NCBI GenBank assembly: GCA_003162935.1
Contig: PLUW01000116.1
Coordinates: 1 to 57,059, forward strand
From: Acidobacteriaceae bacterium
GTDB taxonomy: Bacteria; Acidobacteriota; Terriglobia; Terriglobales; Acidobacteriaceae
Length of the DNA: 57,059 bases
Reading direction: 5' to 3'
Shown here: one piece after another, positions 6,000 to 56,502 of the stretch
Layout: each line of letters starts with the position of its first letter
Position numbering within the stretch: position 1 is the first letter of the stretch
Program-made: the position numbers and the translations under genes
Notes under the pieces: model-generated
Seen by the model: only the letters and a program-made list of their open reading frames with translations
Databases searched by the model: none
What the model was told of the DNA's origin: nothing

Positions 6000-6111
6000 A
6001 GTCGTTGGTCGCTAGTCGTTGGTCGCTCGCTCGGCGGGATACCTGCGCTGCTTCTCTATTCTCCCAGGGATTGGTTTTGCCAACGAATGACGACTAGCGA
6101 CCAGCGACTGG
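6000..6111. repeat. inverted repeat with tandemly iterated arms (GTCGTTGGTCGCTA type)
   Basis: The left arm (6000-6028) holds two tandem copies of a 14-bp word, AGTCGTTGGTCGCT. The right arm (6081-6111) is its imperfect inverse. About 52 bp lie between them. The element starts 5 nt after the nadC stop and ends next to the TATAAT of birA. Confidence 0.75.
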
Positions 6112-7196
6112 TTATAATTCCCTCCATCACAGATTCCAGCAAAACTCGCAGCCTGCCAGCGGCGCACAAGGCGACCGACGTTCGCCTGGGCCGCATTGTG
6201 CGGCTGCTGATGGGCTACGCGACGGTTGTGGTGAGCGGCACGAAGATTGCGGAAGAGATGGGGACGACGCGGTCGGAAGTTTGGCGGCTGATTCAGCAAC
6301 TGCGCGGGCTGGGTGTGGATGTGGCGGGGCATCCGGCGACGGGGTATCAACTGCGCTCGGTGCCGGATTTGCTCTTGCCGGAGATGTTGGCGGGGGCGTT
6401 GAAGGGCACGGTCTTCGGTATGCAATCGGGCGCGAACTCCGGCAAGCAAATTCATCATTATTACAAGATCGGGTCGACCAATTCGGAGGCGATGCATGCC
6501 GCCTCCGAGGGCGCTCCCGAAGGCAGCGTGTTTCTTGCCGAAGAGCAACTCGCGGGGCGGGGACGCGGCGCGCACTCGTGGCATTCGGCGCGGTCTTCGG
6601 GGATTTATTGTTCGGTGATTCTGCGTCCGGCGATGCCGCCTTCGGATGCTTTGATTTTTTCGTTGGCGGCGGGGCTGGCGGTGCGGGCGGCGGTGGAGGA
6701 GATTGCTCCGCAGCTAGCAGTCGACCTGAAATGGCCGAACGACCTGCTGCTCGGCGGCAAGAAATTCTGCGGCATTCTCACGGAAATGAATGCCGAGGCC
6801 ACGCGGGTCCGGCATCTGGTGGTGGGTGTGGGAATCAACGTGAACCAGGTGAAGTTTGCGGCGGAGTTGCGCGAGATTGCGACTTCGCTGCGGATCGAGA
6901 CGGGCACGGAGTGGTCGCGGGTGGAGCTTTGCGCGGCTTTGCTAAAATCGCTCGACCGGGAGTATCGCAGCTTGGTCCACGATGTGGGAGCGCGAGATGC
7001 GATCCTGCGGCGATTCGAGGAGAGTTCGTCGTCGGTGCGCGGCAGGAAAGTAACGATCGAAGTAAACACCGACGAAAACGGCGGTCTGGCGGGAGTTACC
7101 GAGGGATTGGATGAACGCGGATTTTTGCGGGTGAGAACGGCGGAGGGGTTGCAGACAGTGGTGAGCGGGACGGTGCGACTGATTGGTAATTTGTGA
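6087..7196 (+). CDS. birA: biotin--[acetyl-CoA-carboxylase] ligase / biotin repressor
   Basis: Activates biotin as biotinyl-AMP and attaches it to the carrier protein of acetyl-CoA carboxylase. The N-terminal winged-helix region (SGTKIAEEMGTTRSEVWRLI) suggests a bifunctional ligase/repressor. The catalytic domain shows GSTNSEA, the biotin-binding loop GRGRGAHSWHS, SGIYCSVILRP, and KWPNDLLLGGKKFCGILTEM. A C-terminal SH3-like domain ends at IGNL. The start is uncertain. ATG 6087 lies in the repeat arm and upstream of a TATAAT, so GTG 6198 (giving MRLLMGYATVVVSG) or ATG 6210 is more likely biologically; the frame is open back to 5832. The last codons lie inside the next inverted repeat. Confidence 0.9.
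   Translation: MTTSDQRLVIIPSITDSSKTRSLPAAHKATDVRLGRIVRLLMGYATVVVSGTKIAEEMGTTRSEVWRLIQQLRGLGVDVAGHPATGYQLRSVPDLLLPEMLAGALKGTVFGMQSGANSGKQIHHYYKIGSTNSEAMHAASEGAPEGSVFLAEEQLAGRGRGAHSWHSARSSGIYCSVILRPAMPPSDALIFSLAAGLAVRAAVEEIAPQLAVDLKWPNDLLLGGKKFCGILTEMNAEATRVRHLVVGVGINVNQVKFAAELREIATSLRIETGTEWSRVELCAALLKSLDREYRSLVHDVGARDAILRRFEESSSSVRGRKVTIEVNTDENGGLAGVTEGLDERGFLRVRTAEGLQTVVSGTVRLIGNL
6113..6118 (+). promoter_or_regulatory. -10 box (TATAAT) upstream of birA
   Basis: A perfect TATAAT directly follows the inverted repeat. A transcription start near 6125 would exclude the ATG at 6087 as the birA start and favour GTG 6198 or ATG 6210. No good -35 is visible at 16-18 bp. Confidence 0.4.
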
Positions 7197-7256
7197 TTTG
7201 TAATTGGTAAACGAGCCGTTCTTAAATTGCCAATTACAAATTACCAATTACAAATC
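7182..7256. repeat. inverted repeat of AATTAC/ATTTGTAATT words
   Basis: A perfect 16-bp stem (7195-7210 with 7241-7256, GATTTGTAATTGGTAA and its inverse) is flanked by further copies of the same AT-rich words. It overlaps the birA stop codon and ends 2 nt before the coaX start. It could hinder read-through or hide the coaX start in RNA. Confidence 0.8.
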
Positions 7257-7258
7257 TT

Positions 7259-8170
7259 ATGCTTCTAGTGATCGATGTCGGCAATACGAATACGGTGCTC
7301 GGCGTGTTTGAGCGGGTGGCGCATCGTCCGGGCGAGGATGTGACCGGAACGGAAGCGGCGCGCTACGAGCGGTTGGTGGCGAACTGGCGCGTCGGGTCGC
7401 ATCTGGGCCGAACCGTGGACGAGTACGGGGTGATTTTCCGCAACCTCTTCTCCATGGAAAATCTCGAAGTCTCGGACGTGCATGGGATTGTGATTTCGTC
7501 GGTGGTGCCTCCGCTCGATGCGGTGCTGCGGCAGGTGTGCGAGCGCTATTTCAACACCAAGCCGCTGTTTATTGAGCCGGGTGTGAAGACGGGGATGCAG
7601 GTGTTGTACGACAATCCCGCGGAAGTGGGGGCCGACCGCATCGTGAATGCGGTGGCGGCGTTTGAGAAATACGGCGGCCCGTGCGTGATCGTGGACTTTG
7701 GCACGGCGACGACGTTCGACTGCGTTTCGAAGAAGGGCGAGTACATGGGCGGCGTGATTTGTCCGGGGATTGGGATTTCGGCGGATGCGCTGTTTCAGCG
7801 CACGGCGCGGCTGCCGCGAGTAGAGATTCGCAAACCGGCGCGCGTGATTGGAACGAATACGGTGGGGAGTTTGCAGTCCGGGCTTTACTACGGTTATCTC
7901 GGTCTGGTGGACGGCATTCTGGAGCGACTGGTGGATGAGCTGGGCGCGGAGACGCGCGTGATTGCCACCGGCGGCCTGGGAGTGCTGATTGGCACGGCTT
8001 CGCACTTCATTAGGGATGTGGATGAGTTTCTTACGCTGGACGGGCTGCGGATTATTTGGGATCGGAACCAGTCGTTTCGGCGGGAAGCGGCGGCGAAGAC
8101 GAAAACGGCAACGATGCCCGCCGCGGATGCGAAGCCGTGGCCGACGCCGAAGAGCCCTAAAGCGAAATAA
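7259..8170 (+). CDS. coaX: type III pantothenate kinase
   Basis: Phosphorylates pantothenate, the first step of coenzyme A synthesis, using the ASKHA-fold type III enzyme. It begins MLLVIDVGNTNTVLGVF, with Asp6 and the phosphate-1 loop. EVGADRIVNAV, the phosphate-2 motif IVDFGTATTFDCV and GGVICPGIGISADALF follow, all typical. Near residues 20-35 it carries a short insertion (HRPGEDVTGTEAARYE) before the conserved NWRVGSH. The C-terminal 25 residues are Lys/Pro/Ala-rich and probably disordered. The order birA-coaX joins biotin and CoA supply to acyl metabolism. There is no Shine-Dalgarno, because the upstream 16 bp are repeat arm. Confidence 0.96.
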   Translation: MLLVIDVGNTNTVLGVFERVAHRPGEDVTGTEAARYERLVANWRVGSHLGRTVDEYGVIFRNLFSMENLEVSDVHGIVISSVVPPLDAVLRQVCERYFNTKPLFIEPGVKTGMQVLYDNPAEVGADRIVNAVAAFEKYGGPCVIVDFGTATTFDCVSKKGEYMGGVICPGIGISADALFQRTARLPRVEIRKPARVIGTNTVGSLQSGLYYGYLGLVDGILERLVDELGAETRVIATGGLGVLIGTASHFIRDVDEFLTLDGLRIIWDRNQSFRREAAAKTKTATMPAADAKPWPTPKSPKAK

Positions 8171-8302
8171 GAGGTCAGAAGTAAGAGGTTAGATGGCAGA
8201 GGTGAAAGGCTCTCAATGTTTGGGTTTTCACCTCTGCAATCTGCTTCTTACCTCTGCTATCGTTTTTTACTTCTGCAATCTGACCTCTGACCTCTTACCT
8301 CC
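8170..8302. repeat. inverted repeat, GAGGTCAG/GCAGAGGT family, copy 1
   Basis: The left arm (8170-8207) iterates words such as GAGGTCAGAAGTAAGAGG. A first right arm (8225-8256) and a second (8267-8302) are inverse copies with CCTCTGCAATCTG. The element begins at the coaX stop and ends 8 nt before the next start. Two other loci in the window share the same words (27.2 kb and 54.9-55.2 kb). Confidence 0.8.
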
Positions 8303-8310
8303 CCAGTGTC

Positions 8311-9021
8311 GTGGAAAATTACTTCAATTACTTCACGGAAATCGAAGAGCACTTTCAGCGAAGGCGCGGCGGAATTCTGCTGCTTTCCACGCTGGATTGG
8401 GCCCTGATTGAGACGTGGAAAAGCGCGGGGGTGCCGCTGGAGGCGGTGTTGCGCGGGATTGACGATGCTTTCGATAAATATGATCAGCGTCCGTCGAAAT
8501 CGAAGAAAGTGAACAGCCTGGCCTATTGCTCGCAGGCCGTATTGGCTGCAGCGGAAGATATGAAGGAAGCGGCGGTCGGCGCCTCCGGCGAAGAAAAAGT
8601 GTCGCGCGAACCGGGGTTTGAAGCGGCGCAGATTTCGGCGTTCCTGCGCGAGAATGCTGAAAAGCTCGAAAAAGCCAAGTTGCCGGAGCGCGTGGGATTT
8701 GCCACGGGAGCGCTGGCGCGGGAAGAAGCTGCGTCGTTGCGTGGGATGGCGGACGAGATCGAGAGCAGCGGCAAGCTTCCGCGGCTGGAAGATTTGGAGC
8801 GGCGGCTGACGGTGCTCGAGGAGAAGCTGTTTGCAGTGCTGATGGCGGCGACTCCGGATGATGAGCTGGTTAGTGTGCGGGCGGAGGCGGATCGGGATAT
8901 CGCTCCGTACCGGAGGAACATGACTACGGCGCAAGTCGAGCAACTGCATAAGCAGTATGTGCACAAGCGGCTGCTGGAGCGTTGCGGCGTGCCGCGGTTG
9001 AGTTTGTTTTATATGCACTAG
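8311..9021 (+). CDS. conserved-looking protein of unknown function
   Basis: A 236-residue soluble protein with no signal peptide or membrane segment; I do not recognise the family. It starts at GTG 8311 (MENYFNYFTEIEEHFQRRRG), 8 nt after the inverted repeat. The middle (about residues 80-190) is rich in Glu, Ala, Leu and Lys and predicted helical, including ENAEKLEKAKLPERVGFATG and LEDLERRLTVLEEKLFAVL, the latter probably a short coiled coil. The C-terminus is basic and His/Tyr-rich (QLHKQYVHKRLLERCGVPRL). It follows coaX in the same direction and precedes an RNA methyltransferase gene. Codon use matches the neighbours, so it is an ordinary resident gene. Confidence 0.8.
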   Translation: MENYFNYFTEIEEHFQRRRGGILLLSTLDWALIETWKSAGVPLEAVLRGIDDAFDKYDQRPSKSKKVNSLAYCSQAVLAAAEDMKEAAVGASGEEKVSREPGFEAAQISAFLRENAEKLEKAKLPERVGFATGALAREEAASLRGMADEIESSGKLPRLEDLERRLTVLEEKLFAVLMAATPDDELVSVRAEADRDIAPYRRNMTTAQVEQLHKQYVHKRLLERCGVPRLSLFYMH

Positions 9022-9113
9022 CATTGCTCCGAAGAGTTCCAACCTGCTGTTCGCGGGGAGAGGCAGGTCCTTCGCTTCGCTCAGGATGACAAACTCCCTC
9101 TAGTGGCGCGAAA
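9022..9113. other. spacer with degenerate repeat words
   Basis: A short non-coding spacer. The segment 9066-9091 (GTCCTTCGCTTCGCTCAGG) is a mini-palindromic word of the kind repeated in the spacers of such genomes. No promoter is convincing. Confidence 0.3.
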
Positions 9114-10677: not shown

Positions 10678-11313
10678 ATGCCCAAATCCAAGCAACCCGC
10701 CAAGAGCCTCACCGACGCCCGACCGGTGGAGTCGCTGATCCGCGTCATCCGCGGCCAGAAGGTCATCCTCGATGCCGACTTGGCCGCGCTGTACCGGGTG
10801 GAGACCAGAATCCTCAACCAGGCCGTACGCCGCAACATGGATCGGTTTCCGGAAGACTTCATGTTCCGGCTCTCCGTCAAGGAAGCGGGATCTTTGAGAT
10901 CACAAATTGTGATCTCAGGCGTTGGGCGCATTGGGCGCGGTGGACGCAGGTATCTGCCGTACGCTTTCAGCGAACACGGCGTGGTGATGCTTTCCTCTGT
11001 GTTGAAGAGCGCGCGTGCCGTGCAGATGAACATCTTTATCGCGAGGACGTTCGTCCGCCTGCGGGAAATCATCGCCAGCAACAAAGACCTGGCCACCCGC
11101 ATCGAGAACTTGGAGCGCGGCCAAGATGGTGCGGCCTCGGTGATCGAGGTGCTGGTCGAGGACATCGACCGGCTTGCCGGTGAGGTGAAACAGATGCAGG
11201 CGCTCCCGTCTGTACCCGAGCGCCGGATCGGATTCCGCCCAGGGAACCGGGACGACTTCAAGAACTCTTCTACCCCAGGCGGAAGCGGCCCTCTTGCATC
11301 GAGCGGCGAATGA
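10678..11313 (+). CDS. ORF6N domain-containing protein
   Basis: A 211-residue protein with an ORF6N domain (residues about 13-110). It has VESLIRVIRGQKVILDADLA, LYRVETRILNQAVRRNMDRFPEDFMFRLS, and the family ending YAFSEHGVVMLSSVLKS. The domain is a DNA-binding module of phage antirepressors (KilA-N/ORF6N group) and is also common as a lone chromosomal gene. A helical segment (about 135-180) follows, then a basic tail. The stop overlaps the comEC start (ATGA), so the two genes are translationally linked. Whether it regulates DNA uptake is speculation. The 187-nt spacer before it has the inverted GGTGAA...TTCACC around 10611-10633, a possible operator. Confidence 0.85.
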   Translation: MPKSKQPAKSLTDARPVESLIRVIRGQKVILDADLAALYRVETRILNQAVRRNMDRFPEDFMFRLSVKEAGSLRSQIVISGVGRIGRGGRRYLPYAFSEHGVVMLSSVLKSARAVQMNIFIARTFVRLREIIASNKDLATRIENLERGQDGAASVIEVLVEDIDRLAGEVKQMQALPSVPERRIGFRPGNRDDFKNSSTPGGSGPLASSGE

Positions 11314-13967
11314 CCCACGACCCCAAGCCTCCGCGGCAGCCATTGTTTTGGGCGGCGGTGGCATTTTCGCTCGGGCTATGGGTGGGGGTGCGAGCGTGGC
11401 GTCCGCCATTGTGGTGGGTGATCGCGGTTGCGGTGTTTGTTTTCGCGGCGTCATGGTTCCTGCGGAAACGCGCGTGGCTAGCCAAGGCGCTCTCTTTGGG
11501 CGCATGGGTTCTGCTGGGAGCGCTCTTGATTCAAGTGCGCGGGCAGAGGCCGGACGAACCTTCGCAGGATGGCGCGCGACTCTTTGCTCTGGCGGATGGG
11601 CGTCCCGTTGTGCTCACTGCGCGTGTAATGCGCGAAGGATATGCGCGGGCGGAGGGACCGCGTTCGATTCGCGAGTCGATTGATGTGGAGACGGAGGAGA
11701 TCGCGAGTGCGGGCGAACGCTGGCCGGTACGGGCCGGGGTGCGGCTGTCGATTTATGAAAAGGTGGAAGATCGGGCCAGCGGGCGATTGGGCGATCGGGT
11801 GATCTTAGATGATCCGATGACACGAGCACCCGATCCCCCGATCCCCTTCGCCTATGGCACGCGGCTGCGCATTCGCGCCAAGCTGCACCCGGCGCGCAAT
11901 TACCGCAATCCTGGAGCTTTCGACTATGAGGGTTACCTGCGCGACAACGGCATAAGCGTGCTGGGGTCGGCGGAGGCGGCGGAGATTGAGCGGCTTCCTG
12001 GATTTTCCGGCAGCCGGATGGAACTGTGGCGGACGCGGGTCCACGCCAGCATCATCGCCAAGATTCACGAGCTGTGGCCGGCGGAGCAGGCCTCTCTGAT
12101 GGACGCCATGGTGCTGGGCGAGGAATCGTTTCTGCGCAACGCCACGCGCACCGAATACCAGCGCTCGGGCACCTATCACGTACTGGTGGTTTCGGGAATG
12201 AACCTGAGCATTTTGGCGGTTGCAATTTTTTGGGCACTGCGCCAGGTGCGGGTCGATCCGGCGGTCGCGGCTGTCGTAACGGTTGTGGTTTCGTTCGCGT
12301 ATGCGTTTGTGGTGGGAGTCGGCCCTCCGGTGTGGCGGGCGGCGCTGATGCTGGCGACGTATCTGGGTGCACGGTTGCTGTATCGCGAGCGCAACATGAT
12401 GAACGCCATCGGGGCGGCGGCGCTGGGAGTTTTGATCGTCGATCCGCGGGCGTTGTTCGGCGCGAGTTTTCAGCTGACGTTTCTGGCGGTCTTTATCATC
12501 GCGGGCATCGGCTCACCGATTTTGGAGCGGACGACGTTGCCCTACGCGCGCGGCTTACGGCTGTTGCGCGCCGCGAGTTACGATTTGCGCGTTGCTCCCG
12601 AGGTAGCCCAGTTCCGGCTCGATTTGAGGTTGATCGGGGGAAGACTGCGGAGATTTATCGGCTCGCATCTCGGTTTGGCTTTGCCAGCGATTTTTCTCCG
12701 CGTGACGATCGCGGCGGGCGAATTGATTTTTATTTCCGCACTGATGCAGGCGGGGCTGGCGCTGCTGATGGCGTATCACTTTCATCGCGCCACCACCATG
12801 GGAATGCCGGCCAACCTGGCGGTGATTCCGCTGACGCAGGTGTTGATGCCGGCGGCCGCCGCCGCGGTTGGCCTGGGATACATCTCGACCGCCCTGGCCC
12901 GGCCCGCTGCCTGGGTTGCCGGGGTTGCGCTGGAAGGGATCGCAGGCACAGTGCATTGGTTGGGCGGTACGCAGTTGGCGGGAACATCGGTCGCCGACTT
13001 GCGCGTGGCGATGCCTACGCTGGCCATGATCCTGGTATCGGTGGCCGCGCTGGTAATGGCTATGCTCGCGACGCAGATCCGTCGAACGCGCTGGGTTGCG
13101 TTCGGTTCGGTGGCGCTGCTGTTTGGAGTTGCGGCCTGGATTGCGTTTGTACCATCGCGACCTCACGTGCGCTCCGGCGTGATGGAGATGACGACGATTG
13201 ATGTGGGACAGGGCGATTCCATTCTGCTGGTGACGCCCGAGGGTCGCACATTGCTGATCGATGCCGGAGGGCTGCCGCAATGGATGCATTCGGATTTCGA
13301 TCTTGGCGAGCAGGTGGTGTCTTCTTATCTTTGGAATCGCGGCATCGATCGTCTGGACGCGGTTGCGATCACGCATCCTCACGCCGATCATTACGGCGGA
13401 ATGCCGGCGGTGATGGCCAATTTTCATCCGCGAGAACTCTGGCTGAGCATCGACAGGCCGATGGGCGATTTCGCGGCGGTCGTGGCGCAGGCCGAACGCG
13501 CGGGGATGAAACTCTCGGTAAAGAAGGAAGGCGATGAGTTCGATTACGGCGGAGCGCATATGCGTGTGCTCGCTCCGGGGCGCGACCAGGTTACCGGGTC
13601 GGTGCGTCCGAACGACGATTGCCTGGTGTTTACAGCCGCGTTTGGCGGGACGGCGGCGTTGCTGGAGGGGGATGCGGAGCGTCCGGCGGAGCGGCGCGTG
13701 GTGGAGGAGCATGCGGAGGCAATGCTGCTGAAAGTGGCGCATCATGGGAGCGCGAGCGGAACGTCCGCAGATCTGCTGGCGACGGTTCGTCCCCGGTATG
13801 CGGTGATTTCGGTGGGGGCGCGGAATGTGTATGGGCATCCGCGGCGCGAGGTGCTGGAACGGTTGCAGGCGGCGGGCGTGAAAACCTACCGGACGGATGA
13901 GGAGGGGGCGGTCAGTTTTTATCTGGATGGGAAGTCGGTGACGGCGGAGGTTGGAATTTTGCACTGA
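11310..13967 (+). CDS. comEC: ComEC/Rec2 family DNA internalisation protein
   Basis: Polytopic inner-membrane channel for single-stranded DNA uptake in natural transformation. The order is complete: N-terminal membrane helices with a DUF4131-type soluble domain (about 1-240), the Competence membrane domain (YHVLVVSGMNLSILAVAIFW at about 290, then many helices to about 620), and a C-terminal metallo-beta-lactamase-like domain with VGQGDSILLVTPEG, ITHPHADHYGGM and LLKVAHHGSASGTS. At 885 residues it is full length. It overlaps the ORF6N gene by 4 nt. No other competence or pilus genes are in the window. A hairpin-rich repeat copy follows directly and may end transcription. Confidence 0.95.
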   Translation: MTHDPKPPRQPLFWAAVAFSLGLWVGVRAWRPPLWWVIAVAVFVFAASWFLRKRAWLAKALSLGAWVLLGALLIQVRGQRPDEPSQDGARLFALADGRPVVLTARVMREGYARAEGPRSIRESIDVETEEIASAGERWPVRAGVRLSIYEKVEDRASGRLGDRVILDDPMTRAPDPPIPFAYGTRLRIRAKLHPARNYRNPGAFDYEGYLRDNGISVLGSAEAAEIERLPGFSGSRMELWRTRVHASIIAKIHELWPAEQASLMDAMVLGEESFLRNATRTEYQRSGTYHVLVVSGMNLSILAVAIFWALRQVRVDPAVAAVVTVVVSFAYAFVVGVGPPVWRAALMLATYLGARLLYRERNMMNAIGAAALGVLIVDPRALFGASFQLTFLAVFIIAGIGSPILERTTLPYARGLRLLRAASYDLRVAPEVAQFRLDLRLIGGRLRRFIGSHLGLALPAIFLRVTIAAGELIFISALMQAGLALLMAYHFHRATTMGMPANLAVIPLTQVLMPAAAAAVGLGYISTALARPAAWVAGVALEGIAGTVHWLGGTQLAGTSVADLRVAMPTLAMILVSVAALVMAMLATQIRRTRWVAFGSVALLFGVAAWIAFVPSRPHVRSGVMEMTTIDVGQGDSILLVTPEGRTLLIDAGGLPQWMHSDFDLGEQVVSSYLWNRGIDRLDAVAITHPHADHYGGMPAVMANFHPRELWLSIDRPMGDFAAVVAQAERAGMKLSVKKEGDEFDYGGAHMRVLAPGRDQVTGSVRPNDDCLVFTAAFGGTAALLEGDAERPAERRVVEEHAEAMLLKVAHHGSASGTSADLLATVRPRYAVISVGARNVYGHPRREVLERLQAAGVKTYRTDEEGAVSFYLDGKSVTAEVGILH

Positions 13968-13969
13968 GT

Positions 13970-14057
13970 GGTGCGGTCCCTTGCGGGACTCGACCCGTCT
14001 CGATTCGGCTTCCCGGCACTCACGTGCCGGGCTTTCCTGTGGTGCCGCTTCGCGGCC
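13970..14057 (+). repeat. triple-hairpin intergenic element, copy 1
   Basis: One of four related copies in the window. Order: GTGCGGTCCC...GGGACTCG hairpin, a variable stretch of about 20 bp, CCCGGCAC...GTGCCGGG hairpin with CACGT in the loop side, GCTTTCCTGT, then CCGCTTCGCGG. It begins 3 nt after the comEC stop. Confidence 0.85.
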
Positions 14058-14156
14058 GGAGGGGTGGCGTGTTCAAGCGAGTGCGCGCCGTGGAGTGCGC
14101 GCCTTGCACGCTCACTCGGGATGTCGCCGGTCGCGGTGATCCGGCGGACTGCACGC

Positions 14157-20809: not shown

Positions 20810-21297
20810 GATTGGCGCGGCTCCCGCCGCGAGCGGATGATTTCTGTGGCGGAGTGGTTCTTGGGATCGCCTACGATGACGACGCGGCCTCCGCAGGCTT
20901 CGACCTCGGCGCGCTCGGGGACGGTGTCGGCGGTGTAGTCGGTGCCCTTGGCGTGAAAGTCGGGATGGATTTCGCGAATGATGGCGCGCACATCCGGTTC
21001 TGGAAAAACCAAGACTGCGTCGACATCTTCCAGCGACGCGAGAATCTCCGCGCGCTCGGCGGCGGGCATCACAGGACGGCCTTCACCTTTTAGGGCGCGC
21101 ACGGAAGCGTCGGCGTTGACCGCGACAATCAGTTTGCCGCCAAGTTCGCGCGCGGCGTGCAGGTAGCGCACGTGGCCGACATGCAACACGTCGAAGCAGC
21201 CGTTGGCCAGCGTGATGCGATCGCCGGCGCGCCGCCAATCTGCCACGCGGTTGCGAAGTTCGTCGCGCGAAAGAATCTTTGAATGGAGTGTGGTCAA
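20806..21297 (-). CDS. rfaE2: D-glycero-beta-D-manno-heptose 1-phosphate adenylyltransferase
   Basis: Makes ADP-heptose from heptose 1-phosphate and ATP. It is the C-terminal half of Escherichia coli HldE, here a separate 163-residue protein. The nucleotidyltransferase motif [17 protein letters not shown] (HVGH at 39-42), [19 protein letters not shown] and [15 protein letters not shown] are typical. It ends in a 4-nt overlap with waaC, whose donor substrate it supplies. The partner kinase gene lies upstream on the same strand, separated by a triple-hairpin repeat copy. Confidence 0.94.
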
Positions 21298-21299
21298 AG

Positions 21300-21389
21300 G
21301 TGCCGTCCCTAGCGGGACTCGAATCGTCCCCCTTCCGCTTTCCCGGCACTTACGTACCGGGTTTTCCTGTTTCGCCGCTTCGCGGCGCG
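21300..21389 (+). repeat. triple-hairpin intergenic element, copy 3
   Basis: It lies between the heptose kinase gene and the adenylyltransferase gene, on the opposite strand to their reading direction. The three stems are conserved: GTGCCGTCCCTAGCGGGAC, CCCGGCACTTACGTACCGGG (one stem substitution) and CGCCGCTTCGCGGCG. Confidence 0.85.
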
Positions 21390-21410
21390 GCCACTTAATG
21401 CGACAGAGGG

Positions 21411-25693: not shown

Positions 25694-27172
25694 ATGGCTT
25701 CCACTCCTACAGTTTCCGGAGACATTCTCGCGAAATACGAGCCGGTTATTGGACTCGAAGTCCACGTACAGCTGCTGACCGCGTCGAAAATCTTTTGTTC
25801 GTGCTCGACGCGGTTTGGCGATTCTCCGAATACGAATGTGTGTCCAGTTTGTCTGGGACTTCCCGGCGCTTTGCCGGTGCTCAACCGGAAAGCGGTGGAA
25901 TTCGCGGCGTTGGCGGCGATGGCGTTGGAGTGCCGCGTCAATCGAGTCTCTATCTTTGCCCGGAAGAATTATTTTTATCCCGACCTGCCGAAGGGGTACC
26001 AGATTTCGCAGTATGACAAGCCGCTGGCGGAGTTTGGATTTATCGACATCGATGTGAATGGGGGCAAGAAGAAAATCGGCATTACGCGTTTGCACCTGGA
26101 AGAAGACGCGGGCAAAAGCCTGCACGAGGGGTTTGCCGATTCCGCGCACAAGACGGCGATTGATTTGAACCGGACCGGCGTGCCGCTGGCCGAAATCGTC
26201 AGCGAGCCGGACATGCGATCGGCGGAGGAAGCTTACGAATATCTCACGCGGCTCAAGGAAATCATCCTTTATACGGGTGTCAGCGATTGCAACATGGAGG
26301 AGGGTTCGTTGCGCTGCGACGCAAATATCAGCGTGCGGCCGCGGGGGCAGAAGGAATTTGGGACGAAGACGGAAGTTAAGAACGTCAATTCGTTTCGCTT
26401 CGTCAAGCAGGCGCTGGAGTATGAAATCGAGCGGCACATCGAAGTCCTCGAATCGGGCGGCAAGATCGCGCAGGAATCGCGGCTCTATAACTCACACGAA
26501 GGCCGGACTTACGGTATGCGCTCGAAAGAGCAGGCGCACGACTACCGGTATTTTCCAGAGCCGGATTTGCTTCCGTTGGTGGTGGATGAAAAATGGCAAG
26601 CTGCGATTCGCGCGAGTTTGCCGGAGCTTCCCGAAGCGCGCCGCCAGCGCATGATCAAGGAGTATGGCATCACGGCCGGCGATGCCCACACGCTGACTTT
26701 GACGCGGGCGATGGCCGATCAGTTCGAGTCGGCGGCGCGCGGGGCGAAAAATCCCAAGCGCGTTGCGAACCTTGTGCAGAGTGAATTGCTGGGACGGCTG
26801 AAGGCTCAGGGGCTGGAGTTGGATCAGTCGCCAATTTCGATGGCGGGAGTTACGACCTCGGCCGATCTGGTCGAGTCGGGTGCGATATCCGGGAAAATGC
26901 TGAAGGATCTATATGACCTTTGCTTCGATCGCGCGCAGGACTTCGCTGCCGTTTATGAAGCCGAGGGGCGTCCCGAGCAATCGCGGGACACGTCTTCTTT
27001 GGAGAAACTTGCAGATGAGTTGATCGCGGCGAATCCGAAACAGGTGGAGCAATATCGGGCGGGCAAGAAAACCATGATCGGATTTTTCGTCGGCCAGGTG
27101 ATGAAGGCGTCGAAGGGGCAGGCGAATCCGCAGTTGGTGAATGAGATTTTGACGAAGAAGCTGGAAGGGTGA
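25694..27172 (+). CDS. gatB: aspartyl/glutamyl-tRNA amidotransferase subunit B
   Basis: Part of GatCAB, which converts Glu-tRNA-Gln (and Asp-tRNA-Asn) to the amide form. Subunit B carries the kinase/transamidation site. It begins with YEPVIGLEVHVQLLTASKIF, then the zinc cysteines CSCS and CPVCLGLPGALPVLN, FYPDLPKGYQISQYDKP, and DCNMEEGSLRCDANISVRP. A helical tail domain (GatB/YqeY type, about 345-490) ends KLEG. The length of 492 is usual. gatA and gatC are not adjacent. The inverted repeat that follows probably separates it from the converging foldase gene. Confidence 0.97.
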   Translation: MASTPTVSGDILAKYEPVIGLEVHVQLLTASKIFCSCSTRFGDSPNTNVCPVCLGLPGALPVLNRKAVEFAALAAMALECRVNRVSIFARKNYFYPDLPKGYQISQYDKPLAEFGFIDIDVNGGKKKIGITRLHLEEDAGKSLHEGFADSAHKTAIDLNRTGVPLAEIVSEPDMRSAEEAYEYLTRLKEIILYTGVSDCNMEEGSLRCDANISVRPRGQKEFGTKTEVKNVNSFRFVKQALEYEIERHIEVLESGGKIAQESRLYNSHEGRTYGMRSKEQAHDYRYFPEPDLLPLVVDEKWQAAIRASLPELPEARRQRMIKEYGITAGDAHTLTLTRAMADQFESAARGAKNPKRVANLVQSELLGRLKAQGLELDQSPISMAGVTTSADLVESGAISGKMLKDLYDLCFDRAQDFAAVYEAEGRPEQSRDTSSLEKLADELIAANPKQVEQYRAGKKTMIGFFVGQVMKASKGQANPQLVNEILTKKLEG

Positions 27173-27178
27173 AAACGA

Positions 27179-27276
27179 AGGTCAGAGGTGAGAGGTCAGA
27201 TTGCAGAAGTAAAACCCCAAGGGATATGTTTTTGTTTTTACCTCTGCAATCTGACCTATCACCTCTGACCTGACCT
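27179..27276. repeat. inverted repeat, GAGGTCAG/GCAGAGGT family, copy 2
   Basis: The left arm 27179-27214 and right arm 27235-27276 are near-perfect inverses of about 36 bp, with a 20-bp loop, built from GAGGTCAG and TTGCAGA words. It lies between converging gatB and the foldase gene and contains the stop codon of the latter. It is long enough to act as a bidirectional transcription stop. Confidence 0.85.
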
Positions 27277-28354: not shown

Positions 28355-28386
28355 TCCTCCGCGTCGACGGCGATGCATGCGGTAGA

Positions 28387-28474
28387 GTGCCGTCCCTAGC
28401 GGGACTCGATTTGTCCCGCTTCTGCCTTCCCGGCACTTACGAGCCGGGCTTTCTTGTTCCGCTGCTGCGCGGCT
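28387..28474 (+). repeat. triple-hairpin intergenic element, copy 4
   Basis: The same three-stem order: GTGCCGTCCCTAGCGGGAC, CCCGGCACTTACGAGCCGGG (imperfect stem), GCTTTCTTGT, CCGCTGCTGCGCGG. It lies between the DsbA-like gene and the foldase gene, both on the - strand. Confidence 0.85.
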
Positions 28475-42862: not shown

Positions 42863-43582
42863 TTGGGACTTACGTCTGGTTCGACCGGCGCCGTACTTGC
42901 CGCCTTCCCTGCCCATCGAAAAACGACCGCTCGCGTCGCCATGTTTGACTTGAGCGAAGCGTCGGCTCAACTGGTGACAGATTGCTTTCGGCAATATGGA
43001 ATCGAAACGGTTCCGATTGCACGCGAGCGCGTGGATCGCCTGCAACACGAAAAGTTCGAGGCCTGCGTTCTGCCCCTGGGTGAGAGCGCCGGCAGCATTA
43101 TCGAACTGGCGCGAAGTTCGGCTTCCAACAGCCGGATCATTATTTTCGGGCTGGGCGGGACGGCGCAGGATGCCATGCGGTATTCGAAATTGTGCATCAA
43201 CGCAATCTTCCACGAACCGCTGGAGAGGTCGGCGGCGATGAAGCTGGTGCGCTCGACGCAGATGCTGGTGCTGCACGAATTCCAGCGTTACGTGCGGATC
43301 CCGGTGATGACCGAGGTTGGGGTCGTCTCGATCGACGGTAGCCGCATCACCGCCACCAGCCTGGAGATCAGCTCGGGCGGAATGTCGCTGAAGGGTAATC
43401 GCATGCCGGAACGCGACAGCCATGTGGAGGTGTCGTTTTCCCTGCTAACGCTGCCCCGAGTCTGGATCCGCGGGCAGGTTACATGGGAGAAGCCGAACAA
43501 GATCTTCGGAATCCGCTTTGACGCCAGCGACGAACGCCGGCAGCGGCTGAAAGAGTGGATCGTCGCCTATCTGGAAGGGTAG
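42863..43582 (+). CDS. PilZ-domain protein with receiver-like N-terminal region
   Basis: A 239-residue protein. A TTG start at 42863 follows AGAGGAG (about 8 nt upstream). Residues 30-135 resemble a response-regulator fold (VAMFDLSEASAQLVTDCFRQ...FEACVLPLGE...SRIIIFGLGG) but lack the phosphoacceptor Asp pattern. The C-terminal PilZ domain (about 140-239) has FQRYVRIPVMTEV and SLEISSGGMSLKG. The second box has Glu in the place of the usual Asp/Asn, so c-di-GMP binding may be weak. Probably signals to surface or motility systems. A single arm of a CAGTT-word repeat lies just after the gene. Confidence 0.8.
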   Translation: MGLTSGSTGAVLAAFPAHRKTTARVAMFDLSEASAQLVTDCFRQYGIETVPIARERVDRLQHEKFEACVLPLGESAGSIIELARSSASNSRIIIFGLGGTAQDAMRYSKLCINAIFHEPLERSAAMKLVRSTQMLVLHEFQRYVRIPVMTEVGVVSIDGSRITATSLEISSGGMSLKGNRMPERDSHVEVSFSLLTLPRVWIRGQVTWEKPNKIFGIRFDASDERRQRLKEWIVAYLEG

Positions 43583-43591
43583 AAGACCGGT

Positions 43592-43621
43592 CCTCAGTTT
43601 TCAGTTCTCAGCTTTCAGTTA
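43592..43621. repeat. CAGTT-word repeat, single arm
   Basis: Iterated heptamer-like TCAGTTT/TCAGTTC/TCAGCTT words, the same family as the inverted repeat at 56431-56502, but without a matching inverse arm here. It starts 10 nt after the PilZ gene. Confidence 0.7.
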
Positions 43622-44462: not shown

Positions 44463-44504
44463 GGCGGGGCTGCTGTTTTTGTTCTTTCTCAAATTGGGTT
44501 CGCG

Positions 44505-44715
44505 CATGATCGTAGGCCGGCGACACGCCGGCGCTATGGGAAGCGGGTGAAAATCCCGCGCTGCCGCGCAACTGTAAGCGAGGACAACGCAATCGGTCAC
44601 TGGGGATCTCTAGAAGGCCCTGGGAAGGCCGGTTGCAGTAAGCGGATGTTGAGTGAAAGCTCACTGAGAGCAAGCTCACATTCTGACTCGCGAAGCCAGG
44701 AGACCGGCGTGAACC
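44505..44715 (+). ncRNA. cobalamin (AdoCbl) riboswitch
   Basis: The core elements are clear: GGGAAGCGGGTGAAAATCCC (44538-44557), then GCGCAACTGTAAGCG (from 44566), GGTCACTGGGGAT, CCTGGGAAGGCCGG (peripheral stem), and the B12-box-like AAGCCAGGAGACCGGC (44693-44708). It lies in the leader of a TonB receptor gene and should turn it down when cobalamin is plentiful, by hiding the ribosome site AAAGGAG (44741-44747). The 5' part contains GGCCGGCGACACGCCGGCG, itself a palindrome that may double as a stem of the aptamer. Confidence 0.93.
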
Positions 44716-44754
44716 GTCCACTACAACCCTTTCGCGTGATAAAGGAGACGTGTC

Positions 44755-46992
44755 ATGCCGCTTACCCGTGTTTTCGCTACATTTCTTTTTCCGCTCGTCG
44801 TTGTTCTTTGCGTGATCAGTCTCGCGCCCAGCGCTTCCGCCGAAATTAAAATCAAAGTGATAGACCCTTCGGAGGCCGCCGTCGCGGGCGCGCAGGTGCA
44901 GTTGCTCAAGGTGGGCAAGTCCGCACCAGTGGCTGCGCTGAGCACGTCGGCGGAAGGGATCGTAATTTTTCGCGAAGCGATAGGCAGCGGGTACCGGGTT
45001 CTGGTATTGGCTCCGGGCTTCGCGGTGGAAGCGGCGGATCTCTCTTTCAAGGATCTTCCAACCGAGGGTATCACCACCATCAAGCTTCGCCTGGCAACGG
45101 CGGCGGAAACCGTGGTCGTGACCGCGACCCGCACTCCGGTTCCGAGCGAGGCGGCGGGCGCCGATGTTGACACCCTGAGCGGCGGGCAGTTGGAAGCGAT
45201 GAACCCGGCTGCGGCCGATGATGCCATGCGCTTTCTACCCGGCGCGGTCGTGAATACTGCGGGGCAACTTGGCGGAATTTCATCTCTGTTTGTGCGCGGC
45301 GGGGAGTCTACATACAACAAAATGATTGTCGATGGGGTCTACATCAGTGAAGCGGGCGAAACGTTTGATTTTGGAACGCTGCCGCTGGCGCAAGCCGATC
45401 GCCTGGAATTTGTGCGGGGCGCGCAGAGCACGTTGTACGGCTCCGATGCCATGACCAGCGTCGTGCAGGTTTGGACGCGCACCGGAAGCACTTCGGTCCC
45501 TGAACTCCGTTTTGGCGCCGATGGAGGAAACTTCGGGACGGCCAACGGCTACGCGTCTCTGGCTGGAACCCACGGACGTTTCGACTACAACTTTTTTGGC
45601 GACCAGTTCAACAGCAACGGACAGGGCGTAAACGACGCCTACTCGGATTCGCTGCAGGGGGCGAATGCCGGCGCGGCCATTACTGACCGGGTTGGACTGC
45701 GCGTGCGTGTGCGCCACTCCAACAGTCATACGGGGCTCCCGGGGGAGTGGGATTTCAACGGCGATGCGCCCGTTCCGCCACTTTCAGTTGGGGACTCGCA
45801 GACCAACACTCTGCTGGGAAGCGCCGAACTTACCGTCGCCGCTCCCTCGGGCTGGCAACATCGCCTCACGGCATCCGATTATTTCTATCGCTATAACGAC
45901 AACAGTCCGGAGGGAAATACCTACAACTTTGCCTCTCTCTACGACGAGCACGTCAATCACATGGCGCTCGAATATCAGGGCGACTACTCGGAGCGCGCCT
46001 GGGCGCACACAACCTTGGGATATCGCATCGAAAACGAAAACGCATTAGTCAATTACCCTACCTATTTCTCGGAAACCAATGGCACGCGCCTCGACCAGAA
46101 CGCGTACCTGCAACAGCAGTTCACGCTGGGCAGGCTGTCCGTCATTGCGGGCGGGCGTTTCGTTCACAGCAGTACCTTCGGCAACACGGGCGTACCACGG
46201 GTCGCCCTGACTCTGTTGGCGCTGCGAGGCGGGGATTTCTTTTCTGGAACCCGCTTGCGTTTTTCCTATGCCACGGCGTTCATGGAACCGGATTTCCAGG
46301 AGACCTTCGCCAATCTTGGATCGGGCTACGTCCCGAACCCCGGTCTTTTGCCGGTGCGCACGCGGGCGTTCGAAGCCGGATTCCAGCAGAGCTTGCTGGC
46401 CGGCCGTTGGGCTCTAAATGCCACCTACTTCAACAACCTCTTCCACGATCAGATTGAATATGGGACCAATACCGTGGAGTACATGGGCAACCCTCCGGGC
46501 ACCCTGTATCAGTTTTTCAATCTGCAGCAATCTCTTGCCCACGGCGCCGAGGTTCAATTGCAAGGAAGAATCTGGAAAAGACTGTCGCTGAACACGGCTT
46601 ATACCTATACCTCGACGCAGATTCTGCAGGCTCCGCTCTGCACTGCGGCGAACTATTGCAATCCTGTATTTGACACGGGAAGTCCTTTGCTTCGGCGCCC
46701 CAAGCATTCCGCCACGACGCTCCTCAGCTATCTCGGAACGCGCTGGGGCGCGAATCTGGGAGGAAGCTTCGTAGGCCGGCGTCCGGATTCCGATTTTGTC
46801 GACACCCTCGTCAACCACGCCGCCGGCTATGCGCGCGTCGATCTCGGCGGGTGGTACGCGGTCAATTCGCGAATTACGGCCTACGCGAATGTCGATAACG
46901 CGCTCAACGATCATTACAACGAGGTGGTGGGATATCCGGCGCTGGGGGTGAATTTTCGCGCGGGCGTGAGGTTTCGGATCGGCGGGGAGTAA
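44755..46992 (+). CDS. btuB: TonB-dependent vitamin B12 receptor with carboxypeptidase-like N-domain
   Basis: Outer-membrane uptake of cobalamin, 745 residues. A signal peptide (ending SLAPSASA) is followed by a carboxypeptidase-regulatory-like domain (about 30-115), a feature common in Acidobacteriota receptors. A TonB box-like ETVVVTATR lies at 118-126. The plug has GGISSLFVRGGESTYNKMIV and LEFVRGAQSTLYGSDAM. The barrel has many alternating strands and ends VNFRAGVRFRIGG. The riboswitch directly upstream gives the substrate call; btuCDF are not in the window. AAAGGAG lies 7 nt before ATG. Confidence 0.92.
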   Translation: MPLTRVFATFLFPLVVVLCVISLAPSASAEIKIKVIDPSEAAVAGAQVQLLKVGKSAPVAALSTSAEGIVIFREAIGSGYRVLVLAPGFAVEAADLSFKDLPTEGITTIKLRLATAAETVVVTATRTPVPSEAAGADVDTLSGGQLEAMNPAAADDAMRFLPGAVVNTAGQLGGISSLFVRGGESTYNKMIVDGVYISEAGETFDFGTLPLAQADRLEFVRGAQSTLYGSDAMTSVVQVWTRTGSTSVPELRFGADGGNFGTANGYASLAGTHGRFDYNFFGDQFNSNGQGVNDAYSDSLQGANAGAAITDRVGLRVRVRHSNSHTGLPGEWDFNGDAPVPPLSVGDSQTNTLLGSAELTVAAPSGWQHRLTASDYFYRYNDNSPEGNTYNFASLYDEHVNHMALEYQGDYSERAWAHTTLGYRIENENALVNYPTYFSETNGTRLDQNAYLQQQFTLGRLSVIAGGRFVHSSTFGNTGVPRVALTLLALRGGDFFSGTRLRFSYATAFMEPDFQETFANLGSGYVPNPGLLPVRTRAFEAGFQQSLLAGRWALNATYFNNLFHDQIEYGTNTVEYMGNPPGTLYQFFNLQQSLAHGAEVQLQGRIWKRLSLNTAYTYTSTQILQAPLCTAANYCNPVFDTGSPLLRRPKHSATTLLSYLGTRWGANLGGSFVGRRPDSDFVDTLVNHAAGYARVDLGGWYAVNSRITAYANVDNALNDHYNEVVGYPALGVNFRAGVRFRIGGE

Positions 46993-52777: not shown

Positions 52778-52832
52778 AAGGCTTACTTCCCCGGCGTTGC
52801 GGGCCTTGGTTCATCCTGTGGTAGATCAGTGC

Positions 52833-52838
52833 TATACT
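52833..52838 (+). promoter_or_regulatory. -10 box (TATACT) of the DUF433 gene
   Basis: TATACT ends 7 nt before GTG 52846, so the transcript would be nearly leaderless. No clear -35 is visible. Confidence 0.45.
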
Positions 52839-52845
52839 CCGCTTC

Positions 52846-53559: not shown

Positions 53560-53944
53560 ACAATTGGTCCTTTTCATCGACCGCTCGCTTGGCAAGCAGA
53601 TCCTAGCTTCCGCGCTGCGGAACGCCGGTCACAGCGTAGCAGTCCATGACGACTATTTTCCGCCGGACGCGCCAGACAACCTGTGGCTGTCGGAGGTTAG
53701 CCGTCGCGGGTGGGTTGTGCTAACCAAGGACAAAAGGATTCGATACCGCGCATCGGAGCTTGCTGCTGTCAGCACCACAAAGGCACGGGTATTCACGCTG
53801 ACGGCTGGTAGTATCCAAGCGCGGGAGATGGCCGATATCTTCATCCTTGCGATGCCGAAGGTTCAAGCCTTCGTAGCAAGAAACTCCCCACCATACATTG
53901 TGACGATTAGCAGATCGGGGTTGCTGTCGAAAGTGTATCCCTGA
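53546..53944 (+). CDS. PIN-like toxin (VapC45/DUF5615-like)
   Basis: A 132-residue protein starting at TTG 53546 inside the end of the antitoxin gene. LVLFIDRSLGKQILASALRN (Asp near residue 11), VHDDYFPPDAPDNLWLSEVS and GWVVLTKDKRIRYRASE match the PIN-like family, with Asp residues at the expected positions. Predicted to cut RNA. With DUF433 it makes the second toxin-antitoxin pair in the window. Converges on fabD with 2 nt between stop codons. Confidence 0.82.
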   Translation: MKLPEQLVLFIDRSLGKQILASALRNAGHSVAVHDDYFPPDAPDNLWLSEVSRRGWVVLTKDKRIRYRASELAAVSTTKARVFTLTAGSIQAREMADIFILAMPKVQAFVARNSPPYIVTISRSGLLSKVYP

Positions 53945-53946
53945 CG

Positions 53947-54921: not shown

Positions 54922-54930
54922 AAGTAATAA

Positions 54931-54966
54931 GGTCCAGAGGTAAGAGGTCAGATTGCAGAGGTTAAA
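54931..54966. repeat. inverted repeat arm, GAGGTCAG/GCAGAGGT family, copy 3 left
   Basis: Words GAGGTAAGAGGTCAGATTGC... as at 8170 and 27179; its inverse is at 55164-55199. The interval between the arms is about 197 bp, unlike about 20 bp in the other copies, and holds a small ORF. Confidence 0.8.
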
Positions 54967-54987
54967 ATCCAAGAGCCGTCAGATCGA

Positions 54988-55155
54988 TCAGTCGCAAGTT
55001 CCCTCCCGTTTTCCTCGCTGCCAACGCTCCAGTAGTTCGGTTTTCCAACCCTTCGGCGGTGGCCAAGGCACTCCCCATTTGGCAAGTTGCTCCCCCGTCC
55101 ACCCACCACGCTCTGTCTTGGCTGCCTCGACTTCCTCCGGTGAAGGCGTTCTCAT
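54988..55155 (-). CDS. small 55-residue protein between repeat arms
   Basis: A short ORF, ATG 55155 to TGA 54988. It begins MRTPSPEEVEAAKTERGGWT and contains LAKWGVPWPPPKGWKTELL, a Trp/Pro-rich motif that recurs in unrelated small proteins, then a charged end (ERWQRGKREGTCD). No membrane segment. Function unknown. It lies inside the gap of the third inverted repeat of its family, between plsX and fabD. Codon pattern and the Trp/Pro motif favour a real gene over chance. Confidence 0.6.
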   Translation of the reverse strand: MRTPSPEEVEAAKTERGGWTGEQLAKWGVPWPPPKGWKTELLERWQRGKREGTCD

Positions 55156-55163
55156 CGCGGGAT

Positions 55164-55199
55164 ATTACCTCTGCAATCTGACCTCTCACCTCTGACCTT
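55164..55199. repeat. inverted repeat arm, GAGGTCAG/GCAGAGGT family, copy 3 right
   Basis: The inverse of 54931-54966 (ATTACCTCTGCAATCTG, then CCTCTCACCTCTGACC). It ends 2 nt from the plsX stop. Confidence 0.8.
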
Positions 55200-55201
55200 C
55201 C

Positions 55202-56218
55202 CTACGTTGCAACCGCCGCGCTCAACTGCGCCAGTTCCCGCTCAATGGCTTCGTTGACCTTGCCCTCGGCGAACTCCGCGGCCACTCGCACCGCGTTCTT
55301 GATGGCATTCGTATTCGACGATCCGTGCGTAATGATGCACACGCCTTTGATTCCCAACAGCGGAGCGCCGCCATACTCGGTGTGATCGAGCCGCTTCTTA
55401 AAATCGGAAAAAGCGTTGCGAGAAATATAGGCGCCGACCTGCCGCGTGATCGTCGACTTCAAGGTCTCTTTCAACACGGCGCGCACCAGCCGGGCCACGC
55501 CTTCCGAGGTCTTCAGGGCAACGTTGCCGACAAATCCGTCGGCCACGATTACGTCCACGTGGCCGTTGTATAAATCGCGGCCTTCGACGTTGCCAATGAA
55601 ATTGATGGGAAGCCGTTTGAGCAGTTGAAACGCTTCGCGCGTCAGATTGTTGCCCTTGCCTTCTTCTTCGCCAATCGAAAGCAGGCCGACCCGCGGATGC
55701 TCCATGCCGAAAATCGAGCGGCAATAAATGTCGCCCATCACCGCGAACTGCTCGAGATTGACGGCCGTGCAATCGACATTCGCGCCAACGTCTAACAGAA
55801 CGGCAGCCGTGTTCAGCACGGTGGGAAACGCGGCCGCCAGCGCCGGACGATCCACGCCGGGCAGCGCTCCGAGCACGACTTTGGCGGTGGCCATGGCTGC
55901 GCCGGTGTTGCCGGCGGTCACGAAGCCGGCAGCGCGGCCCTCGCGCACCAGTCGCAGTCCGACGCGGATCGACGAATCGCGCTTGGCGCGAATCGCATCC
56001 ACTTTGTCGTCCATGGTGATGACTTCGCTGGCGTGGACTACGTCCACCGGCAGCCGCCGCGCGCCGGGAAAGCGCGCCAGTTCGGCCCGCAGCCGCGCTT
56101 CAGGACCAACTAGAAGCACGCGCACGCCGTGATGGCGCGCCGCTTGCAACGCGCCTTCAATCTCCGGCTTCGGCGCCTTGTCGGACCCCATCGCATCCAG
56201 TGCGATTACGGTAGGCAT
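55202..56218 (-). CDS. plsX: phosphate acyltransferase PlsX
   Basis: Forms acyl-phosphate from acyl-ACP for the PlsY step of phospholipid synthesis. The protein begins [20 protein letters not shown], with [59 protein letters not shown], and [17 protein letters not shown], all family hallmarks. The 338-residue length is right. It follows rpmF by 12 nt and is in the standard yceD-rpmF-plsX-fabD order, apart from the inserted repeat/ORF segment. Confidence 0.96.
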
Positions 56219-56230
56219 GGAAGAGAGGAA

Positions 56231-56416
56231 CTAGGACTTTTCTTCGACCTCAACAATTTCGCGGCCCTTGTAGGTTCCGCATTTCGGGCAGGCGCGGTGC
56301 GGCATCTTCCGCTCATGGCAGTTCGGACACTCCGACAGCGAGTGCTTGGAGAGCGAGTCATGGGCACGCCGCGTTGCGGTGCGCTTCTGTGAATGTCTGC
56401 GTTTCGGATTGGGCAT
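56231..56416 (-). CDS. rpmF: 50S ribosomal protein L32
   Basis: A 61-residue ribosomal protein of the large subunit. MPNPKRRHSQKRTATRRAHD, then the zinc ribbon CPNCHERKMPHRACPKCG with four cysteines and a C-terminal GREIVEV. A zinc-containing L32 of usual size. It sits between yceD (DUF177) and plsX, the near-universal arrangement, and is probably cotranscribed with both, although a CAGTT-word inverted repeat lies upstream. Confidence 0.98.
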   Translation of the reverse strand: MPNPKRRHSQKRTATRRAHDSLSKHSLSECPNCHERKMPHRACPKCGTYKGREIVEVEEKS

Positions 56417-56430
56417 GATATTCCTTTTTT

Positions 56431-56502
56431 GTTCTCAGTTGTCAGTTCTCAGTTTTCAGTCAACCCGTTTTTACTGACAACTGACAACTGATAACTGACA
56501 AC
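56431..56502. repeat. inverted repeat of CAGTT words between yceD and rpmF
   Basis: The left arm 56431-56460 (TCAGTTGTCAGTTCTCAG with further units) and right arm from about 56472 to 56502 (CTGACAACTGACAACTG with further units) are inverse copies of iterated heptamers. About 11 bp separate them. A hairpin this long may partly end transcription before rpmF or stabilise its RNA. Confidence 0.85.

Follow-up and report, generated by a model that had tools for sequence, protein, structure and literature searches.

We analysed a 57,059-nt stretch of DNA from an Acidobacteriaceae bacterium (contig PLUW01000116.1; the window, below) for inverted repeats whose arms consist of short, similar words. A sequence-only reading of the window had claimed seven such sites, and all seven are present in the sequence. 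Six of them have the claimed second arm, an inverse of the first across a loop; the seventh (43590-43620) is a single arm. The arms are indeed tandem arrays of short words. Their unit is 7 nt with one or two variable positions, or 14 nt where two variants alternate. Tentatively, and at slightly less than an even chance, we interpret these sites as one class of dispersed stem-loops: inverted arrays of degenerate heptads that flank a short, for the most part unique centre and lie immediately behind stop codons, with a role like that of repetitive extragenic palindromes (REPs) and renewed word by word.

Three of the hairpins lie close together. The first (5999-6110, words AGTCGTT/GGTCGCT, RNA fold z -6.6) separates birA from an open reading frame (ORF) at 5116-5994 that we take, by resemblance only, to be nadC-like. 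The second (7181-7256, TTGTAAT/TGGTAAT, z -7.6) has the birA stop codon (ORF end 7196) within its left arm, and its right arm ends 2 nt before coaX. The third (8164-8301, AGGTNAG with an ATTGCAG variant, z -7.3) forms two nested or branched stems, and its arm starts at the TAA stop codon of coaX (8168-8170). Further along, an AGGTNAG hairpin (27179-27271, z -12.0) sits between convergent gatB-like and SurA/PpiC-like genes, whose stop codons are 6 and 3 nt away. The single arm (43590-43620, plus strand, CAGTTNT/CAGCTTT) starts 7 nt past the stop codon of ORF 42941-43582. An inverted pair of AGGTNAG arms (54935-55198) encloses a 204-nt loop; 3 nt separate its right arm from the stop codon of a PlsX-like gene (55202-56218, minus strand). 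The last hairpin (56431-56502, GTTNTCA, z -6.2) lies 3 nt from the end of the stop codon of a YceD-like gene (56506-57057, minus strand). No strand is assigned to the paired repeats.

Stop codons of birA and of the foldase gene were said to lie inside the repeats. This is true for birA. The stop codon of the foldase gene (the SurA/PpiC-like gene, 27275-28378, minus strand) lies 3 nt outside the arm, which ends at 27271. For genome annotation this means that a repeat can supply a stop codon (coaX) or contain it (birA). Folded as RNA, five of the six paired heptad repeats of the window (all but 54935-55198) have z scores from -6.2 to -12.0. The hairpin at 56431-56502 folds into a ladder of mostly 6-bp blocks with a 1x1 mismatch every 7 nt.

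The elements are found far beyond the window. A hairpin built from the CAGTTNT word (pattern CAGTTNTCAGTT…AACTGANAACTG) occurs in at least 115 stretches of bacterial genome contigs. We studied 80 of these as a cross-phylum set, in which many records are metagenome-assembled genomes, so that misbinning is possible. Among the matches listed are records of nine phyla, which from the record titles we assume to be Acidobacteriota, Planctomycetota, Cyanobacteriota, Bacteroidota, Poribacteria, Chloroflexota, Pseudomonadota, Desulfobacterota and Patescibacteria. In a sample of 199 genomes from the phylum, six carry the CAGTTNT hairpin. The same type of hairpin is present on a Scytonema plasmid, on a Hymenobacter plasmid and in phage contigs. 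Matches also came from plasmids of Enterobacter and Pantoea. In four stretches from Poribacteria (L100, L124, L159 and L160) the CAGTTNT hairpins adjoin an outer palindrome of the GGTTTTT…GAAAAACC type, which resembles a larger multi-copy element.

A period of seven bases is common to these repeats. Inverted repeats scoring 16 or more number 24 in 457 kb of the window's own genome; an order-3 Markov copy of the same sequence contains none. The autocorrelation of the left arm reaches 0.7 at lag 7 in 12 of the 24 and at lag 14 in nine, and at the remaining lags from 4 to 13 it does so in none. Of the 23 inverted repeats whose arms are strongly periodic in 831 kb of the genus, 22 repeat every 7 nt. 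With the word we searched for dropped, the period is still found in 17 of 24 periodic repeats in the cross-phylum loci and in 24 of 26 in viral loci, and period-7 segments lacking the searched word are present in 33 of the 80 cross-phylum loci.

The words themselves are numerous. One word family alone has 157 sites in the genome at up to two mismatches (83+74), against 4+1 for the reversed pattern. The genus has many distinct heptad words, further ones being CAGGTNT, TAGCTCT/TGGCTCT, CAGTACC and TTCGTCG/TTCGCTG, among others. GGG tracts are missing from the words of the window and present in some words of phage contigs. The viral contigs L238 and L250 each carry several different words. In the viral contigs L231, L238, L246 and L250 we also saw heptad hairpins behind several consecutive genes, with up to about four words in 14 kb.

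Stop codons mark where the hairpins lie. All 35 hairpins in the 831 kb of the genus are mostly outside called genes. Three of them have no facing 3' gene end, and 27 of the other 32 start between -16 and +8 nt from the nearest facing stop codon. In tandem spacers, 23 of 28 are closer to the stop codon than to the next start (p 0.0009, one tie left out). Hairpins in tandem spacers fall in the range from -16 to +8 nt in 25 of 29 cases, compared with 4 of 19 non-heptad palindromes from the same stretches of the genus in any type of spacer. Across phyla, where gene ends were taken from crude ORFs, five hairpins of the 80 loci lie within ORFs; a facing stop codon exists for 61 hairpins and is at most 6 nt away for 32 of these. 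Among 33 hairpins on viral contigs of more than 9 kb, 18 lie between -16 and +8 nt (two contigs overlap, so that a few hairpins are counted twice). On viral contig L231, for example, three hairpins begin 3-4 nt past called stop codons, a fourth begins at the stop codon of ORF 1268-1858, and another is 21 nt past a stop. In phage Mic1 four CAGTTAT arrays begin 4, 5, 9 and 12 nt past annotated stop codons.

Between species the hairpins come and go. We compared the spacers nadC-birA, birA-coaX and coaX-next gene in the window and 12 congeners (up to 13 species), whose coaX genes are 75-89% identical to that of the window. The birA-coaX spacer holds the TTGTAAT hairpin in seven species including the window's, a GTAGGGACAGCC-type palindrome in G001, G004 and G010, another sequence in G003 and 15 nt only in G002 (the spacer of G012 was not covered). 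The spacer after coaX holds an AGGTNAG hairpin in five species, is short and free of hairpins in six and has other content in two. Between nadC and birA, a spacer incompletely covered in G004 and G012, four species have GTCG words, G008 and G011 have TTCG words, G001 and G010 have TTGCTGG words, and 48 nt are kept in G002. In G006 and G009 the same spacer contains a TTGTAAT hairpin nested in the remains of another heptad hairpin. Of 14 genomes searched for the exact pattern of the TTGTAAT hairpin, six contain it, all of this genus. At the spacer of the 27179-27271 hairpin, G008 and G003 have other elements.

Where birA-coaX hairpins can be aligned, the arms contain gaps of 7 and 14 nt, and small gaps also occur in the loop and flank. 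Presence of the hairpin, word family and word number thus all vary between orthologous spacers, which supports a dynamic process. The sequence-only reading would have given up such a process if orthologous arms had shown no change in word number; they differ by 7 and 14 nt. The feature tables of two near-identical Trichormus plasmids, the only data compared for them, agree in proteins and spacing, and overlapping phage contigs are identical or nearly so across the overlap.

Turnover extends to a coding region, because congeners differ there in the number of octads or in the palindrome. Within ORF 11310-13967 lies an inverted repeat of 8-bp words (11769-11846, no strand, word GATCGGGC/T, fold z -2.4), which the sequence-only reading had not listed and which is an exception to the 7-nt unit. 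The corresponding region has more octads in G008 and a different palindrome in G009, G003 and G004. Spacers of the genus are refilled repeatedly: a small palindrome, heptad-based or not, can differ from species to species at one spacer. Examples in the window are 27168-27275, 7178-7258, 13967-14152 and 21290-21410.

The arms have a fixed polarity. Whichever strand is read, the word sits in the 5' arm. In the 80 cross-phylum loci, which were chosen by the forward pattern, the arrangement with swapped arms has no match against 102 overlapping forward matches. With a slightly shorter pattern, viral contigs give 37 forward stretches and six swapped ones, five of which are one near-identical sequence. 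Within the CAGTTNT word, one position is free. We examined 245 words outward of the searched core, selected for at least four of six matches at fixed positions, which inflates the conservation of these positions. A, G and T at positions 2-4 are conserved in 90-96% of the words and the fixed positions overall in 67-96%; the bases at position 6 are distributed 26/14/30/30%. In words from many phyla it is this same position that is free.

Within the genus the inner edge of the arms is mostly AAAACC…GGTTTT-like: a GAAAACC-like string, a motif noticed before it was counted, is found in 46 of 66 examined hairpins of several word families and the reversed string in nine. Outside the genus this edge was not found (8 of 80 hairpins vs 4 of 80 reversed). 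At 40 of 68 edges the genus centres also have a tract, of A on their 5' side or of T on their 3' side; the opposite orientation is seen at 2 of 68. AGGTNAG hairpins have long arms in common, around centres that mostly differ.

How could such elements work? When the upstream gene is transcribed, the arms would fold into a long stem just past its stop codon. By analogy with REP-type intercistronic hairpins, the stem most likely acts on the 3' end of the upstream message, on its decay or on spacing. Transcription of the heptads in Xanthomonas (PMC4692102; here and below we draw on excerpts of the cited papers) counts in favour of this interpretation. An element would be tolerated after a stop codon because elsewhere it would break promoters, ribosome sites or reading frames. 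At the DNA level, the arms may take up new words one at a time from copies elsewhere in the genome, through copying at the opened hairpin, with the loop as a probable entry point for new sequence. Renewal of this kind would give near-identical arms around differing loops, and the TTGTAAT hairpins that are nested in the remains of a GTCG hairpin in two species. Gains and losses of 7 nt spare the stem because periodic arms pair in any register.

Several observations weigh against this interpretation. Genes were called by our own codon-usage script, which is unvalidated. Spacers with a facing 3' end are not significantly preferred (32 of 35 vs 396 of 508, p 0.08). Selection for pairing at the RNA level gives no clear signal, with 23 G-U against 14 A-C (p 0.19). 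The loops are not wholly unlike either: 15 AGGTNAG centres have a similarity of 6.4 compared to 5.4 after shuffling. Finally, neutral renewal alone does not explain why a word consensus is kept across phyla.

The sequence-only reading had proposed one process behind the several families, and in this it holds up. The families have the same period, polarity and post-stop position and, within the genus, the inner edge noted post hoc; hairpins are gained, lost and replaced, and their arms change by 7 and 14 nt. The process it named, slippage plus inversion, is disfavoured; the alternative it offered, a common factor, may apply. In the named process polymerase slippage would multiply a word and the array would be copied into the opposite strand. 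Fresh slippage should give identical neighbours and inversion should give matching arms, and neither is seen in G151. This genome belongs to a different family of the phylum and has 16 hairpins with 38 pattern matches, a small sample from one genome. Neighbouring words agree at the free base in 18 of 73 cases (19.0 after shuffling), and the match between opposite arms is no better than that between arms taken from different hairpins (18 vs 17.8, p 0.55); words and arms are hence independent at the degenerate base. Recurrence of the same word in records of nine phyla, among the matches listed, is a further argument against slippage. On its side are the 7- and 14-nt differences between species, an earlier proposal that slippage prefers heptads (cited in PMC4679880 and PMC4692102) and the free positions of the two arms, N and N', which across phyla pair in 44 of 80 hairpins where 22 are expected. 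We tentatively read this last excess as a species-level preference for one word. Copying from arm to arm was considered for it as well and is weakened, as G151 taken by itself does not show the excess. Overall, slippage plus inversion is very unlikely. The same independence of words and arms within one genome suits a different explanation, in which a putative nucleic-acid-binding protein reads each word through six fixed positions and one free position. Arrays would be kept where binding helps, and different words would belong to different proteins. The constant place of the free position across phyla fits this idea, which has been put forward for TAACTGA repeats (PMC4679880) and for Geobacter heptads (PMC2700814). 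It is harder to reconcile with the many words in one genus, with the speed at which words or palindromes supplant each other at a given spacer, and with a position set by the stop codon and not by the downstream promoter. We consider binding-site arrays unlikely, without dismissing them. Alternatively, both ends of a break in the spacer could receive copies of one short word, either from an enzyme that carries its own template or through repetitive extension, and then be joined through filler, resulting in inverted arrays with a unique centre. Such end writing would account for the polarity, for arms that vary independently, for unique centres and for single arms. Of the scorable single arms in the genus, 12 of 14 point away from the nearest gene (one of them is the far arm of 54935-55198). 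This polarity of single arms is not a general rule, since it is followed by 7 of 10 cross-phylum and 8 of 18 viral single arms. The three counts cover 42 of 54 arrays, the other 12 lying within ORFs or at a distance from genes. There is also no candidate enzyme. Ku was not found in G008, a 99% complete genome rich in elements, so Ku-dependent joining is not required. End writing is improbable in our view.

Mobility would be a more familiar cause. Non-autonomous transposons, either miniature inverted-repeat transposable elements (MITEs) or REPs, could be moved by a Y1/RAYT or a DDE transposase. They would likewise be dispersed, intergenic, palindromic and variable in presence between species, and Y1_Tnp genes occur in nine of nine other genus members tested. 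Yet the window's own assembly (83% complete) has no Y1_Tnp match, and in the phylum sample such genes are present in 124 of 199 genomes as opposed to six with the CAGTTNT hairpin. Two Y1 genes whose flanks were examined, in G008 and G009, adjoin other palindromes, with no heptad array within 700-800 nt. Direct duplications are absent at 48 hairpins (3.02 vs 3.08 shuffled), and a MITE-like shared interior was not seen in the AGGTNAG centres, which differ apart from the slight similarity given above. No GTAG/CGTC tag was noticed by eye at the foot of the palindromes, where no count was made. The tests covered Y1 transposases, not DDE ones, and they leave transposition with very little probability. 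The position after stop codons might instead suggest ordinary bidirectional transcription terminators whose flanks are repetitive by chance. Bacteria commonly have inverted repeats behind their stop codons (PMC13155455), and the A- and T-tracts of the genus centres count in favour of terminators. Outside the genus the tracts are reversed (18 vs 30 of 160 edges), a scan of 5900-8400 gives no terminator at the three hairpins there, and the elements occur inside co-directional gene runs. Moreover, perfect inverted repeats generally peak 50-80 bp past stop codons (PMC13155455) and not at 0-8. Terminators are the least probable of the explanations considered. A broader possibility, also improbable, is that an unrecognised and horizontally widespread mechanism flanks gene-end junctions with 7-base words on either side, across many bacterial phyla and their phages. 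The writer might be an enzyme that carries a short template of its own and leaves one position untemplated, and the heptads in print would be its products.

The window and its relatives contain other repeats and RNAs. Rfam 15 gives three window matches above the gathering score, none of them on the heptad hairpins. Acido-Lenti-1 matches lie on non-heptad palindromes at 14012-14057 and 28429-28474, and a cobalamin riboswitch (RF00174) at 44489-44726 on the plus strand, directly upstream of ORF 44755-46992. In stretch L074 of G008, Acido-Lenti-1 matches lie at 12771-12816 (minus), 13340-13385 (plus) and 13580-13625 (minus), and an inverted pair brackets a Y1 transposase gene (12952-13284) in the manner of terminal repeats. 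Rfam treats Acido-Lenti-1 as a small RNA; it may instead be a repeat that a Y1 transposase of the TIRYT type mobilises. Together with ribosomal genes similar to those of a record titled Acidobacteriaceae (79% over 382 bases), the Acido-Lenti-1 matches point to an acidobacterium. The own genome also has a non-heptad TTGTCATCCTGAGCGAAGCGAAGGA palindrome family (G000:C86 37552-37633 and 69782-69857; G000:C32 108419-108503).

How does the proposed class of stem-loops relate to known repeats? It shares exact 7-nt tandem units with variation, a mostly intergenic location and many copies per genome with the heptad repeats described before. Cyanobacterial short tandemly repeated repetitive (STRR) heptads, as in Calothrix, include several heptad words per genome, as is the case here; the excerpts give neither a hairpin geometry nor a gene-end position for them. 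These Calothrix heptads are mentioned in work on Xanthomonas (PMC4692102), where GGGNATC heptads form 70 and 75 intergenic inverted pairs, always with one array per strand. They are closer to the upstream ORF (mean 28 nt), and their length and sequence vary between species. The Xanthomonas GGGNATC and Nostoc GGGGA(C/T)T repeats are, like ours, dispersed intergenic heptads with a variable position; they differ in being one G-rich, quadruplex-forming word, and the excerpts of that report, which centres on quadruplexes, describe neither a set of many words nor a shared inner edge. The window words have no G-tracts for quadruplexes, unlike GGGNATC.

The word itself has a precedent. TAACTGA, the 3'-arm form of CAGTTNT, forms direct repeats in Beggiatoaceae, Cyanobacteria and Bacteroidetes, with 7-nt indels between two Cyanothece strains (PMC4679880). 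Both are intergenic and scattered over phyla. In the excerpts, TAACTGA repeats are direct (with one indirect repeat in the main genome) and lie mostly just upstream of starts. Our hairpins share the word and not the placement, as the count for tandem spacers shows. In the Nostoc trnL intron, P6b is a stem-loop of TDNGATT or NNTGAGT heptads (PMC4476775). It too has a stem of degenerate heptads, varies in length by heptads and has its repeat classes replaced, although it is a single site within a group I intron. Geobacter metallireducens has multi-copy tandem heptads and octads, intergenic and intragenic, some with strand-switching loops (PMC2700814). They use other words and are interpreted as binding sites, being termed putative regulatory RNAs or global regulator sites, and the excerpts do not relate them to stop codons. 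REP/RAYT (REP-associated tyrosine transposase) and TIR/TIRYT palindromes are likewise intergenic, dispersed and foldable as RNA, but as excerpted they lack heptad arms and are tied to Y1 transposases (PMC3733652).

Searching titles and the openings of abstracts in mainly freely accessible literature, we found no paper on heptad hairpins in Acidobacteriota or on their post-stop position across phyla. Earlier reports concern one genome and one word each, and the heptads figure in them as simple repeats, as formers of quadruplexes, as sites for regulators or as stems of an intron. The present data join these reports through one period, one polarity, one position after stop codons, a word common to records of nine phyla and to phage contigs, and a degenerate base that varies independently between words and arms in the one genome tested. 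With the reports joined in this way, the data speak against plain slippage, and the question why the unit is seven becomes directly testable.

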